Assembly: GCA_018814875.1 (NCBI GenBank)
Contig: JAHIYH010000026.1
Span: 1-43,830, forward strand
Direction: 5' to 3'
DNA from: Patescibacteria group bacterium
GTDB taxonomy: Bacteria > Patescibacteriota > Gracilibacteria > Peribacterales > Peribacteraceae
Length of the DNA: 43,830 nucleotides
The translations under genes and the position numbers were made by a program. Shown in pieces: positions 22,829 through 40,842 of the stretch (the stretch's first letter is position 1; each line of letters starts with the position of its first letter). Below the pieces are notes generated by a model. The model worked only from the letters and a program-made list of their open reading frames with translations, did not search any database and had not been told where the DNA came from.

Positions 22829-23395
22829 TTACTCAAGGTGCAGTGCTTCCTTCAGCCCCTCATAAATCTGATCAATCGTCCCATCACCATTCACCTCAAT
22901 TAGCTTTCCTTGATCTTTATATTCCTCAATCACCGGCATCGTCTTCTCTATAAATGTATCCATTCTACGCAAAATAATCGACTCATCGCTGTCATCAGCT
23001 CTCCCCTCTTCTTCGGCACGTCCTAGAATTCTTTGCACCGCTTCCTCTTTGCCAAGCTTGATTTCTATGCATTTAAAGTCACGTCCTACTTCTTTCATAA
23101 TTTTGTTGAAAGCATTCATCTGATCGCTGTCGCGAGGAATACCATCAAAGAGAATCTTTTGATCCGCTCCACGAGCAAGTACTGCTTCTTTGGTTACTAG
23201 CATTATGATCTCGAAAGGAACCAACTTGCCCTCATCAATGAAGGATGCAACCTCATCTCCCAAAGGCGTACCGGATGCTTTTATTTTCCTGAGTTCTCCA
23301 CCTGCCTCAAAGATATCGTACCCAAATTCAGCAGCAAGCTTTTTGGCTTGTGTGCCTTTTCCTGAACCTTGGATTCCAAAGAAGACGAGATCCAT
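22829..23395 (-). CDS. adk: Adenylate kinase (short-lid form)
   Basis: Transfers phosphate between ATP and AMP. 188 residues; P-loop GIQGSGKGT at 7-15, AMP-site FDGIPRDSDQ and the R-rich LID start RILGRAEEEGRADDSDESIILRR. The LID is short, with no zinc Cys cluster, as in the small adenylate kinases of many CPR and cyanobacterial genomes. It lies downstream of SecY, separated by the 106-residue orphan and repeat words. Confidence 0.95.
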   Translation of the reverse strand: MDLVFFGIQGSGKGTQAKKLAAEFGYDIFEAGGELRKIKASGTPLGDEVASFIDEGKLVPFEIIMLVTKEAVLARGADQKILFDGIPRDSDQMNAFNKIMKEVGRDFKCIEIKLGKEEAVQRILGRAEEEGRADDSDESIILRRMDTFIEKTMPVIEEYKDQGKLIEVNGDGTIDQIYEGLKEALHLE

Positions 23396-23401
23396 ATGAT
23401 T

Positions 23402-23470
23402 AGTATTTCGTATTTCGTATTTCGTATCTAGTATTTCATACGAAATATTTCATACGCTATACGGTATACG
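23402..23470. repeat. Inverted word repeat (TATTTCGTATTTCG family)
   Basis: ATTTCGTATTTCGTATTTCG words face ATACGAAATATTTCATACG. Shares words with 25113-25212 on the other side of secY. Confidence 0.75.
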
Positions 23471-23497
23471 TTACACAAGCTTCTCATAATCATGTAT
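23471..23497 (-). repeat. Duplicated secY 3' end (HDYEKLV plus stop)
   Basis: The minus strand reads CAT GAT TAT GAG AAG CTT then GTG TAA, that is HDYEKLV-stop. The real secY end at 23807-23830 encodes the same seven residues with different synonymous codons and a TGA stop. The 106-residue orphan lies between the two copies. Confidence 0.8.
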
Positions 23498-23810
23498 CGG
23501 ATGGGTCTTGCGCGGCATCTATACTACTTGACGTGGGGCAAAAAGGAACCGGATCGGATAAGGACAACTTAAAAACATTAACACTCAGTTCACACCCGCG
23601 TTTAAATTGTTCAAAACAAAACTTACTTCGTGCATCTAAAATAATCTTCGCAAGCCCGACCTCAACATCATTTGAAAGTTGCGAAGAGTGTGAATCTGCT
23701 TTTGCCCTCCTTCTCTGCGTCTCAATCGACGAAAGCGCCATTACTCTTTCTTGTTCAATCCTCAATTTATCGTAATGATCAGCCATAGCAGGAGAACAAT
23801 TGAGGTTCAT
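23490..23810 (-). CDS. Orphan 106-residue protein between secY and adk
   Basis: Not recognised. A charged helical N-terminal half (HYDKLRIEQERVMALSSIET, QRRRAKADS) is followed by VGLAKIILDARSKFCFEQFK and a Ser/Pro-rich end. No signal peptide or membrane span. Its ATG overlaps the secY TGA (ATGA), so it can be translated by coupling. It lies between secY and a second copy of the secY C-terminal codons, suggesting it arrived by insertion or duplication. It may be functional or chance coding; the clean coupling is the main support. Confidence 0.5.
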   Translation of the reverse strand: MNLNCSPAMADHYDKLRIEQERVMALSSIETQRRRAKADSHSSQLSNDVEVGLAKIILDARSKFCFEQFKRGCELSVNVFKLSLSDPVPFCPTSSSIDAAQDPSDT

Positions 23811-25084
23811 ACCAGCTTCTCGTAATCATGTGCAAGCAATTGTGAATTCACCTGTCGAATCAGCTCCATAACCACACCTACAATAATAATGAGTCCTGAA
23901 CCAGAGATGATAAGATCTTGCGAACTCAAGTTTGAATACTTGGTGAATACAAGCGGCATTATGGCAACAATACCGAGGAAGCTGCCTCCCCACAGATTCA
24001 ACCTGCTGGACGTCTTTGCAAGAATCTCCGCTGTCTGTTTACCAGGGCGAATACCGGGGATAAATCCACCACGCTTCTGTATGGTTTCTGCAATTTCGTC
24101 AGGGCGGAACGTGACCGAAACATAGAAGTATGTGAACGCCATCACCAATAAGAAGTAGATGAATATGTACGGAATACTCGGTGCAGAAGGATTTAAGTAG
24201 GTTGTGATAAAGCTAACTACTGATGCGAAATTTGGAGCGGTAGAAAGGAATTGCGCAACGATCGCCGGAAGCGTCATCAAAGAAATTGCAAAGATGATAG
24301 GGATCATCCCAGCTTGGTTGAGTCGAATTGGAATACCACCTTGCACACCACGTCCTGCTCCTTGGTTGGCATATGTAATAGGAATCAAGCGATGAGCGTC
24401 TGTGAATAGAACAACCGCAACAAGAGTTGCCAATGAGATGATGCAGAATAGATAGAAAGCTGCCATCTTGCCTTCTCCTGCGATAAAGAGCGAACTTAAC
24501 ACAGCAGGAATTCCAGAGATTATTCCAGTAAAGATGATCAACGAGATACCATTACCAATTCCCTTCTCTGTAATTAGCTCACCCAACCACATTATGAACA
24601 ACGAACCAGTGGTCACGAATAGCATCGGTGCCAAAACACCGGGAAAACTAAGATCAATCAAATTAGCTCCTCCACGACTAAGCAAAATCAGGAAGCCGTA
24701 GCTCTGCACAAAGGCGAGAGGAACAGTGAGGTAACGTGTGTAGCGATTGATCTGCTGCTGCCCTTGTGCCCCTTCTTTCTGCATTGCTTCCAGCTTGGGG
24801 AAAATAACAGTACTCAATTGCATGATAATCGATGCATTTATGTACGGGGAAAGCCCCAGAAGAACAATAGAGAAGTTATCAATCGATCCACCTGTCAGTG
24901 CTGCAAAAACTCCTACGATGCCAGATCCGTCACGTGATTCCAGAAATTGTCTGAGTGCAGACGGATCAGATCCGGGGATCGTAATATGCGCTGCAATGCG
25001 ATACACCAAAAGAATGCCGAGTGTAAAGATAATGCGCTTACGAAGATCCTCGGAGTGCCAGAGTTGTTGGAGATATGTGAACAT
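23807..25084 (-). CDS. secY: Protein translocase subunit SecY
   Basis: Main channel of the Sec translocase in the cell membrane. 425 residues with ten membrane segments in the usual pattern: RIIFTLGILLVYRIAAHITIPG (TM1), the plug region, GLSPYINASIIMQL (TM2), GISLIIFTGIISGIPAV, FFT-type loops, QGAGRGVQGGIPIRLNQAGMIPIIFA and RPDEIAETIQKRGGFIPGIRPG, both signature blocks. It ends HDYEKLV. It precedes adk and follows L15, as is normal. The last four bases overlap an orphan gene. Confidence 0.97.
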   Translation of the reverse strand: MFTYLQQLWHSEDLRKRIIFTLGILLVYRIAAHITIPGSDPSALRQFLESRDGSGIVGVFAALTGGSIDNFSIVLLGLSPYINASIIMQLSTVIFPKLEAMQKEGAQGQQQINRYTRYLTVPLAFVQSYGFLILLSRGGANLIDLSFPGVLAPMLFVTTGSLFIMWLGELITEKGIGNGISLIIFTGIISGIPAVLSSLFIAGEGKMAAFYLFCIISLATLVAVVLFTDAHRLIPITYANQGAGRGVQGGIPIRLNQAGMIPIIFAISLMTLPAIVAQFLSTAPNFASVVSFITTYLNPSAPSIPYIFIYFLLVMAFTYFYVSVTFRPDEIAETIQKRGGFIPGIRPGKQTAEILAKTSSRLNLWGGSFLGIVAIMPLVFTKYSNLSSQDLIISGSGLIIIVGVVMELIRQVNSQLLAHDYEKLV

Positions 25085-25112: not shown

Positions 25113-25212
25113 CTACTGACTAGTATCTAGTATTTCGTATTTAGTATCTAGGGGATAAAATCGAACATTTCATAGATCATACGAGATACGAAATACTAAA
25201 TACGAGATACGA
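25113..25212. repeat. Inverted word repeat (TATTTCGTATTTAGTATC family)
   Basis: CTAGTATTTCGTATTTAGTA words face ACGAGATACGAAATACTAAA. The right arm extends into the end of the L15 gene, so the final L15 codons (VSRI-stop) are repeat words. Confidence 0.8.
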
Positions 25213-37930: not shown

Positions 37931-38743
37931 TTAGGCAAAAGTTAACGACTTTGCCAGCTTTGGTTCCAATTGTTTCTTCTGCTTTTTGTTGAGCTCCTTT
38001 GCATACTCATAGAGCTCCTGTGAATATGGAAGTGATGAACGAATGTACTTCTTCATATCTTCCAATTCTGACACTGACATTCCGATGTAAGAATGTGTAC
38101 TGACATTTTCTCTTCTCACATTGCTCACAGGTACACCTATTAATGAGTAGCAAATGGAAAAGTCTTCGGGATTCTCCGTAATGCCAACAAAGATAAACCC
38201 GTCAAGAATATGCTTTGCTTGCTCCAAATGTTCGTATGTCAGTTTATACATCTCTTCAGGATGGAGCCCTGCACAGAAATGCAAAAGGTATTTTGTATAA
38301 CTTACAAATATAGTATCTTTTACAACCTCAAACCATTCTGAAAACGAAAGAATCTTTCCATTTTCACCTTCAAGACACATACCACTCATCAATATTCCAT
38401 CTTTTTCATATATAGATCTGTGATGATTATACAAAGAAACCACACGTTCGGCTTGATCTCTCAGAAACACAATCTTGTGATTTTCTCTCTCATTAAAAAC
38501 ATTGGCTACTTCCTTTAAGAAAATATTATGCCCACATACTACATGTGCCTTTTCCCGTTCTTGCTCAGACAAAAATAAAACACAATCCATAGGTTTAATG
38601 CCTCTGGCTTCATTTCGATAAGCTGATACTATTTTTTCTTTTTCGTAGTTACGCTTCAAATGAACATGGATTGTAGTTCCTCCAGTCTTGGGCATATGTA
38701 GAAATACAAATAGTGGCCTATGTTGTGGCGACAAACTATCCAT
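37931..38743 (-). CDS. Sulfotransferase-like protein
   Basis: 270 residues. The PAPS-binding loop HMPKTGGTT (16-24) follows a beta strand (LFVFL), as in carbohydrate sulfotransferases of the HS2ST/Sulfotransfer_2 type. The 3'-phosphate motif is IVFLRDQAERVVSLYNHH (91-108). It is homologous to the C-terminal half of the neighbouring fusion protein; both end YEYAKELNKKQKKQLxxKLA. GGGAG lies 5-9 bases upstream of the ATG. It probably modifies a surface polysaccharide exported by the adjacent ABC system. The decayed ATPase just upstream suggests it was once the C-terminal half of a second fusion gene. Confidence 0.85.
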   Translation of the reverse strand: MDSLSPQHRPLFVFLHMPKTGGTTIHVHLKRNYEKEKIVSAYRNEARGIKPMDCVLFLSEQEREKAHVVCGHNIFLKEVANVFNERENHKIVFLRDQAERVVSLYNHHRSIYEKDGILMSGMCLEGENGKILSFSEWFEVVKDTIFVSYTKYLLHFCAGLHPEEMYKLTYEHLEQAKHILDGFIFVGITENPEDFSICYSLIGVPVSNVRRENVSTHSYIGMSVSELEDMKKYIRSSLPYSQELYEYAKELNKKQKKQLEPKLAKSLTFA

Positions 38744-38834
38744 GAACTCCCATCAAATGTAACAAGCTATCAGGCAAGTGCCAAGTGCAAAATAAGTGAC
38801 TACGAATACAGGATTAGAATTTGTTATTAAGTTT

Positions 38835-39215
38835 TCCCCGCTACCATTGGTGACAATACACCCGTGGTTTTATCGAGATATGTTTGCAACACGGTTTCAG
38901 GATCACCATCCATGATGCCCCCTTCCCCCTGCTAATTCTTTAATGAAGTCTTCACTGTGGCTAGTCATTACAACTGTCGCATCACCTTGAACAAGCTCCA
39001 TCATCTTATCGCGACTTTTCTCTCTGAATCGCGCGTCTCCAGTTGCGAATACTTCATCAAGTAATAGAACTTATGATTCCAAATGCACTGCAATAGAAAA
39101 AGAAAGCCGTGAAGCCATACCACTAGAGAACTTATACAACTGTACATCTATAAAATCCTCAAGCTCCGAGAACTCTACGATGGAATCAAACTTGATAGAT
39201 ATCTCACCTCACTTA
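38835..39215 (-). pseudogene. Decayed duplicate of the polysaccharide-export ATPase
   Basis: The stretch aligns base by base with 40140-40480 of the intact ATPase gene (signature to H-loop region). The codons before Walker B read HLES-stop-VLLLDE where the intact gene has HLEPEVLLLDE. Frameshifts and a deletion follow near 38930, and the Walker A part is missing at the 39215 end. Its last readable part gives DGDPETVLQTYLDKTTG. It is the only content of the gap 38744-39225. Confidence 0.85.
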
Positions 39216-39225
39216 ACCCTAAATG

Positions 39226-40842
39226 TTAAGCAAAGGCCAACGACTTTGCCAGCTTTGATTTCAATTGTTTCTTCTGCTTTTTGTTGAGCTCCTTTGCATA
39301 CTCATAGAACTCCTGAGCATATGGCATTGAGGAGTTAACATAATCTTTAAGTTCATTCATATTTTTGAACCGAGATTTTGCAAGATCAATATATGAACGT
39401 GTAGCCACATTCTCTCTGTCAACATGGCTTGTATTAACACCCAACAGATTGTAACAAATCGAAAAATCCTCCGGCTGTTCTGTGATACCTACAAAAGTGA
39501 ATTCTTGTAGAGCTTTCTTGGCTAATTTGAAGTGCGCTTTATTGATATGCGTAATTTTATTATCAACGGCAGATGACCAATAAAGCGCAAATGCCACAGG
39601 ATTCATTATCCTGAGCTTACTTCTTGATTTATCAAACCATTCTTCAAACTGAAGAATATCTCCATTCTCTGAGAGAATGAGGCTCTTTTTATTAGTACAG
39701 CCAGTTATGTCGTATTCCTTACGATATTGATCGTACAAAGAAAAAATGCGATTAGCCGGATCTCGTAAAAATGTAATAAGTCGTATTTCTCTCCCAGCAA
39801 AGGAATTACGCGCTTCATTAAACATGATAAGGTGCCCAAAAATCACTTTAATGTTGTGGCACTCCTCCTCCGAAAGAGAGGCGATATGCACATTTGGATC
39901 TTTACCGTTTAAGAGTGTGTTGTATGCAGCCAGAACCTCCCCCTGCTGCAGATTTTTTACGGTGTGCGACCGTATAGTGGTTCCACCCGATTTTGGTATA
40001 TGTAAAAAAATAGTCAACGGCTTGCGTCGGTGCAACACTCTGTTTCTAAGATGTATTTTTGTTGATGAAATGATCTCCTTCTTTTTGGTAAGCCCTCCTA
40101 TGCGAAGATTTTTCATATCTTTTTTGTAAGCCATGATAACCTCTTCAGGAACACCATCCATTTGTACTCTCCCCCTTTCAATCCAAATAATTCTATCAGC
40201 TACTTCTTTAATGAAGTCTTCACTGTGACTAGTCATGATGACTGTCGCATCACCTTGAACAAGCTCCATCATCTTATCACGGCTTTTTTCTTTGAATCTC
40301 ACGTCCCCCGTTGCAAATACTTCGTCTAGCAACAGAACTTCCGGCTCTAAGTGTACTGCGATAGAAAAGAAAAGCCGTGCACCCATACCACTTGAAAATT
40401 TATACAACTGGACATCAACAAAATCATCAAGCTCCGAGAACTCTACAATAGAATCAAACTTGCTAGATATCTCGCTTCGCGAGATTCCGAATAGGGAACC
40501 TACTAAGTAAATATTGTCCCGCATAGTGAGCTTCGGCTGAACACCAACAGAGGAATTTATCAGTGGCATCAGTTTGCCGCGCACATGCACATGTCCACGG
40601 GTTGGCGTATAAATTCCGGCGAGCACTCTTAAAAGAGTTGTTTTCCCCGAACCATTTCTGCCAATAATACCAAGTACTTCTCCTTTTTTAAGTGTAAATG
40701 ATATGTCGTCTAGTGCCCTGATTTTGCGTGGCATACTGGATCCGTTCGCCTTTCCGACAATTTTTGCGAGAATAGTTTCGTCCTCCTGGAGGATAAAATC
40801 CTTTGTAACATTATCAACCGTAATAACAGTTTCTGGAATCAT
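39226..40842 (-). CDS. Polysaccharide ABC-exporter ATPase fused to a sulfotransferase
   Basis: 538 residues, two domains. Residues 1-250 are a Wzt/TagH-type ATPase: Walker A GRNGSGKTT (61-69), signature SSGMG (150-154), Walker B VLLLDE (169-174) and the switch His206 in MTSHSEDF. Residues about 272-538 are a sulfotransferase domain with HIPKSGGTT (281-289) as PAPS loop and FLRDPANRIFSLY (358-370) as 3'-phosphate motif. Typical Wzt proteins instead carry a C-terminal glycan-binding domain, so here the enzyme replaces it. The start overlaps the permease stop (ATGA). Likely role: ATP-driven export of a glycan, coupled to its sulfation at the inner face of the membrane. The coupling is inferred. 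Confidence 0.88.
   Translation of the reverse strand: MIPETVITVDNVTKDFILQEDETILAKIVGKANGSSMPRKIRALDDISFTLKKGEVLGIIGRNGSGKTTLLRVLAGIYTPTRGHVHVRGKLMPLINSSVGVQPKLTMRDNIYLVGSLFGISRSEISSKFDSIVEFSELDDFVDVQLYKFSSGMGARLFFSIAVHLEPEVLLLDEVFATGDVRFKEKSRDKMMELVQGDATVIMTSHSEDFIKEVADRIIWIERGRVQMDGVPEEVIMAYKKDMKNLRIGGLTKKKEIISSTKIHLRNRVLHRRKPLTIFLHIPKSGGTTIRSHTVKNLQQGEVLAAYNTLLNGKDPNVHIASLSEEECHNIKVIFGHLIMFNEARNSFAGREIRLITFLRDPANRIFSLYDQYRKEYDITGCTNKKSLILSENGDILQFEEWFDKSRSKLRIMNPVAFALYWSSAVDNKITHINKAHFKLAKKALQEFTFVGITEQPEDFSICYNLLGVNTSHVDRENVATRSYIDLAKSRFKNMNELKDYVNSSMPYAQEFYEYAKELNKKQKKQLKSKLAKSLAFA

Follow-up and report, generated by a model that had tools for sequence, protein, structure and literature searches.

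Replacement of a gene end by incoming DNA has been described for icd of Escherichia coli, the target of prophage e14 (PMC6379469). In this case, as with phage 21, the incoming DNA brings a new 3′ end for the gene and the old end, icdC, comes to lie at the far side of the insert, with the two ends differing mainly by synonymous changes. The e14 element is 15 kb long and encodes both an integrase and an excisionase.

General recombination offers a second precedent. Single-crossover integration and one-sided homologous insertion have both been described as fates of incoming DNA, and in homology-facilitated illegitimate recombination the insertion is coupled with deletion of recipient DNA, with a microhomology of 3 to 10 bp at one join (PMC3240628). 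For subsurface Patescibacteria, competence and homologous recombination genes have been reported along with many transfers (PMC12455944); in the passages searched, that paper does not describe gene-end-duplicating insertions of the kind seen here. A literature search on duplicated gene ends in operons returned nothing relevant.

The locus that we compare with these systems lies in a stretch of 43,830 nucleotides, referred to as the window, from the 1.42-Mb metagenome assembly (G000) of a bacterium near Candidatus Peribacter in the family Peribacteraceae, Patescibacteria. The best named matches of its secY are Peribacter and Peregrinibacteria records. The features of interest, given in window coordinates, are as follows.

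23807 to 25084, minus strand: secY, 425 aa (Pfam SecY, E=2.6e-94; present in 59/59 relatives)
23807 to 23830, minus strand: the secY end in use, encoding HDYEKLV-stop and called copy 1 (sequence and repeat finder)
23490 to 23810, minus strand: ORF between the copies, 106 codons, with its ATG overlapping the secY stop and its TGA inside copy 2
23601 to 23786, minus strand: codons 9 to 70 of this ORF, its sole part with gene-like codon usage (codon score), starting at an ATG (MADHYDKLR...)
23471 to 23494, minus strand: the second secY end, called copy 2 and probably the old one, now displaced (alignment, pattern and profile; polarity by analogy with secY of G035, dnaN and an S-layer-like gene)
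23399 to 23470, minus strand: TCGTATT-type repeat spacer separating copy 2 from adk (repeat analysis)
22829 to 23395, minus strand: adk, 188 aa (Pfam ADK, E=5.6e-30)

An earlier note on this DNA had reported that HDYEKLV-stop is encoded twice with four synonymous differences, and direct reading confirms this. Copy 1 is CAT GAT TAC GAG AAG CTG GTA TGA and copy 2, read from 23494 to 23471 on the same strand, is CAT GAT TAT GAG AAG CTT GTG TAA; the differences are TAC/TAT, CTG/CTT, GTA/GTG and TGA/TAA, synonymous in every case. A repeat finder independently returned the pair as a 21-nt direct repeat, 90% identical, with the copies 336 bp apart. The note had left room for the 24-base similarity proving no better than chance. 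That the window copies share just 24 bp speaks for such a chance or convergent origin, but their local alignment scores 16 against a shuffle maximum of 11, and copy 2 scores 29.7 with a 27-nt profile of family secY ends, where the shuffle maximum was 4.2 (20 shuffles, all 40 kb of gaps). Moreover, across 74 family genomes (one representative per species, mostly metagenome assemblies), a degenerate 24-nt secY-end pattern was confined to secY itself or to a second copy closely downstream, and the reversed-pattern control gave zero matches in the same genomes. With no match elsewhere and all six cases lying on the same strand closely downstream of secY, we regard chance as an explanation of negligible probability, and the duplication in the window as real. 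The idea that copy 2 is simply the C-terminus of the 106-codon ORF was rejected, its frame being different and the ORF stopping within copy 2 (acaTGAtt).

The intervening ORF (23810 to 23490), which the note called an orphan coupled to secY, is open over 106 codons and overlaps the stop of secY with its ATG in the arrangement ATGA. No homologue was found in 353 genomes of the class; nor did it match a Pfam family above cut-off or a PHROG. Its status as a gene is less firm than the note had it. With a codon score of −0.01, the whole ORF narrowly exceeds the 95th percentile of spurious frames and, among real genes, ranks between the 1st and 5th percentile; codons 9 to 70 score 0.065, and the flanks −0.23 and −0.10. 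Helices are predicted for residues 7 to 37 and 44 to 82 by a low-confidence single-sequence model. Codon usage thus weakly supports the 106-residue ORF as coding, best over codons 9 to 70. Possibly the ORF is a passenger gene, small or decaying, that truly begins at the codon-9 ATG.

Downstream of copy 2, the gap before adk is filled by a 7-bp repeat array (TCGTATT and variants, 23399 to 23470), and a similar array occupies another intergenic gap at 25117 to 25212. A 20-nt probe for the TCGTATT-type repeat found 44 matches in the genome and 0 with the control, and in relatives the gaps matching these two contain different repeat units of their own. The spacer after copy 2, a short array of the genome's own repeats, looks like an ordinary native spacer.

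The note had predicted that relatives without the ORF would have a single HDYEKLV end, and this is what relatives lacking it show; in the sisters G001 and G002, the one secY end lies directly against adk. It had also considered that all relatives might share the double end; a second secY end was found in only 6/74 family genomes, and we rejected the double end as an ancestral family trait on the same count. Five of these were detected by pattern, namely G000 (336 bp apart), G062 (686), G068 (811), G006 (82) and G078 (79), and the sixth, G035, by a profile that slightly favours synonymous differences. The copies share between 21 and ~110 bp, in each case reaching the stop codon. Since G006 and G078 belong to the same genus and have a common insert of ~30 bp, the six genomes represent about five separate origins, and the comparison of family genomes indicates that the double secY end arose in about five lineages. 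With independent assemblies sharing this layout, an assembly join in the window is improbable.

The surrounding gap is itself variable. Among 67 family genomes, secY and adk are separated by ≤10 bp in 7 and by >400 bp in 31, with a range from overlap to 3.7 kb, and the gap holds many unrelated small ORFs. Judged by this content, it is a gene-turnover hotspot within a conserved ribosomal-protein operon. The start of adk is also partly repeated in G006, with a shorter form in G069 and perhaps G031. In G006, two partial adk-start copies precede the real adk (L063, 5044-5125 and 5774-5800) with toxin-antitoxin-like small ORFs between them, the one tested having no Pfam match. The G068 gap (L113, 3540-4020) contains a split ORF which, by eye only, resembles a REP-associated transposase and has no Pfam match; GC-rich palindrome copies flank it. 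In G062, a possible third secY-end copy, 6-nt-deleted (GGTGCATGAAGAAATTGGTGTAA), is seen where the first inserted ORF has its stop codon (L034, 3218-3240).

How the copies differ bears on where they diverged. Over eleven copy pairs, 39/47 changed codons are synonymous and 8/47 non-synonymous. Free drift of one copy would be expected to give ~33 non-synonymous codons, and ≤8 was obtained in 0/20,000 simulations; with half of the changes free, ~16 would be expected, and ≤8 occurred in 125/20,000. The same test applied to icd and icdC gave 9 synonymous codons and 2 other. This synonymous excess implies recombination of diverged orthologous ends and not slippage. Most likely, then, the copies diverged in separate genomes while both were functional gene ends, and were joined later.

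The competing view is that each duplication arose within one genome, by slippage, palindrome template switching or a long transposon target-site duplication, and that one copy then drifted. The copies in G006 and G062 are identical, although identical pairs in themselves say nothing on origin, and the joins of G006, G078 and G062 are in contact with REP-like palindromes, which recur in dead gene starts at hisS and valS of G000. A drifting dead copy, however, would yield mainly non-synonymous changes, no REP-like palindrome was found at copy 2 in the window, and the valS palindrome came in after that start was dead. We consider within-genome duplication very improbable.

These hisS and valS cases emerged from a scan of G000 for duplicated gene ends, which covered 740 ORFs in 937 kb of the 1.42 Mb. 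At both genes it is the 5′ end that is repeated. For hisS (L249, 1224-2570, minus strand), a 28-nt repeat of the start lies ~98 bp upstream, followed by a REP-like palindrome. At valS (L224, 13984-14150), a dead older start (MSLPKAYDPKGTED / RIYKLFQT) sits just upstream of the real one and is split by a REP-like palindrome, which must thus have arrived after the start was dead. Because the palindrome lies inside an already dead start here and is absent at copy 2 of the window, we rejected it as the cause of the duplications. The window also contains two neighbouring sulfotransferase-like ORFs (37931-40842) whose C-termini are almost identical; the longer carries a fused ABC-transporter ATPase, of which a broken copy lies between the two ORFs (about 38880-39200). 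This tandem pair and several other end-repeat matches were rejected as ordinary paralogues. The same scan on 300 kb of E. coli (272 ORFs) revealed no protein-gene case within 2 kb, a sample too small for a rate difference.

At two further loci of G000, a gene is followed by a new ORF and then by a second gene end. One is dnaN, where LIMPLRLQEE-stop recurs, with synonymous differences only, ~850 bp downstream past a 229-aa ORF. At an 870-aa S-layer-like gene, 43/44 bp of the end recur past a 274-aa ORF of 29.6% GC. These two loci, together with secY of G035, allowed us to ask which of the two ends is the old one. Sequence starting at copy 2 in G035 is collinear with the single secY end and spacer of G014 and G030. 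Past copy 2 of dnaN, the sequence matches the dnaN-mfd spacer of the sister G001; between copy 1 and the ORF lies a partial copy of the same spacer. This spacer was rejected as a dispersed repeat, the genome having just two copies. The repeat-rich spacer past copy 2 of the S-layer-like gene likewise resembles that of G001. With a native spacer after the downstream copy at all three loci, the ORF and the rebuilt end would have been the insert there; most simply, the old end is the one downstream, and the end upstream has been rebuilt.

By analogy, copy 2 of the window secY is probably the displaced old end; the layout agrees with that of G035 even in the ORF stop at the TGA within copy 2. The suggestion in the earlier note that a replacement secY end and a new ORF were inserted, leaving the old end behind, is thus supported by synteny at these three loci and carries over to the window by inference, because the nearest relatives, G001 and G002, lack a comparable spacer. 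The reverse arrangement, with copy 1 and the ORF resident and copy 2 plus its spacer arriving with donor DNA joined on the adk side, has a counterpart in G062, where the native gap follows copy 1 and has received a ~0.9-kb block that contains, close to where it starts, a secY tail. In the window, moreover, copy 1 is slightly closer than copy 2 to the sister G001 at synonymous sites, sharing TAC and CTG with it. We nonetheless think this arrangement unlikely, given that the three loci nearest in layout run the other way and that the spacer after copy 2 consists of this genome's own repeats. A sliding comparison of secY with the sisters, aimed at mosaicism, was uninformative, the sisters being just ~75-77% identical in DNA.

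Our preferred reading, to which we assign a probability of roughly 0.5, is that passenger DNA from a related bacterium was added to the window by homology-anchored insertion and left this scar. Donor DNA in which a passenger segment came after a diverged secY 3′ end would have recombined with the resident secY end. The incoming end would then complete secY as copy 1, with the passenger next, and copy 2 would be the remnant of the old secY, its final 24 bp, which stay before adk along with the repeat spacer. The simplest reaction, as its product retains both ends, would be single-crossover integration of a small fragment, circular or circularised, a reaction that inherently repeats the stretch in common; the same product would result from one-sided homologous recombination if an illegitimate join within the old end closed it. 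For the window, we infer the polarity and the donor, as well as a circular intermediate and a route of uptake. As to gene presence only, G000 has a ComEC-type competence gene (174.6 bits against a cut-off of 23).

Several observations favour such an insertion. Second secY ends occur in six family genomes, each closely downstream and on the same strand, and at dnaN, the S-layer-like gene and secY of G035 a direct repeat surrounds the passenger while the resident DNA is intact, as after a single crossover. The window shows a direct repeat of this kind, and its spacer is probably resident. In single crossover and homology-facilitated illegitimate recombination (PMC3240628), one homologous anchor is enough to add foreign DNA, as may have happened here, and single crossover also leaves the homologous stretch duplicated; the likeness is one of sequence. 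In classical one-sided insertion, the recipient usually loses roughly the amount of DNA that it gains, but dnaN and the S-layer-like gene have retained their native spacers, and hence no large deletion occurred there. Against an insertion of this kind, the shared stretches, at 24-33 bp, are short for RecA-type recombination, the flanking spacer copies at dnaN are more alike than the coding ends, and polarity is reversed in G062. No donor genome with the ORF was found among the 353 class genomes.

The layout also invites comparison with e14. As at icd, a gene 3′ end is duplicated at both edges of the insert and the gene is whole. The window could accordingly hold a remnant or non-autonomous site-specific integrative element at the secY 3′ end, shrunk to one ORF, with copies 1 and 2 as attL and attR and an attachment site that mimics the gene end. 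Beyond the layout and the synonymous bias shared with icd and icdC, it fits this idea that the window and G035 agree in where the ORF stops, namely at one and the same TGA within the second secY end. Yet where e14 has its integrase and excisionase, the window has one small ORF, and no integrase or other recombinase family was recognised among the inserted ORFs tested (Pfam, PHROG). A constant core attachment site is likewise missing: the shared length varies from 21 to ~110 bp at secY, the sequence is wholly different at other genes, and unrelated genes are hit at 5′ and 3′ ends alike. We therefore hold such a site-specific element to be unlikely, whether as a remnant or as a non-autonomous element. 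The note had likened the locus to elements that rebuild the gene end they enter; we found no dedicated element, and general recombination accounts for the data as well as one would. Even less probable in our estimation is a family-wide system in which Peribacteraceae harbour many tiny recombinase-free cassettes, each with a recoded gene end and moved by a factor in trans, so that gene ends serve as attachment sites throughout the genome.

Read as the scar of a homology-anchored insertion, the footprint shows gene entry into the tightly packed operons of an ultra-small uncultured bacterium, right beside essential genes. The gene end would be rebuilt at insertion, so that nothing is lost. Since the footprint consists of a second gene end with mainly synonymous differences, it is searchable in any genome and would allow the rate and route of gene gain in Patescibacteria to be counted.
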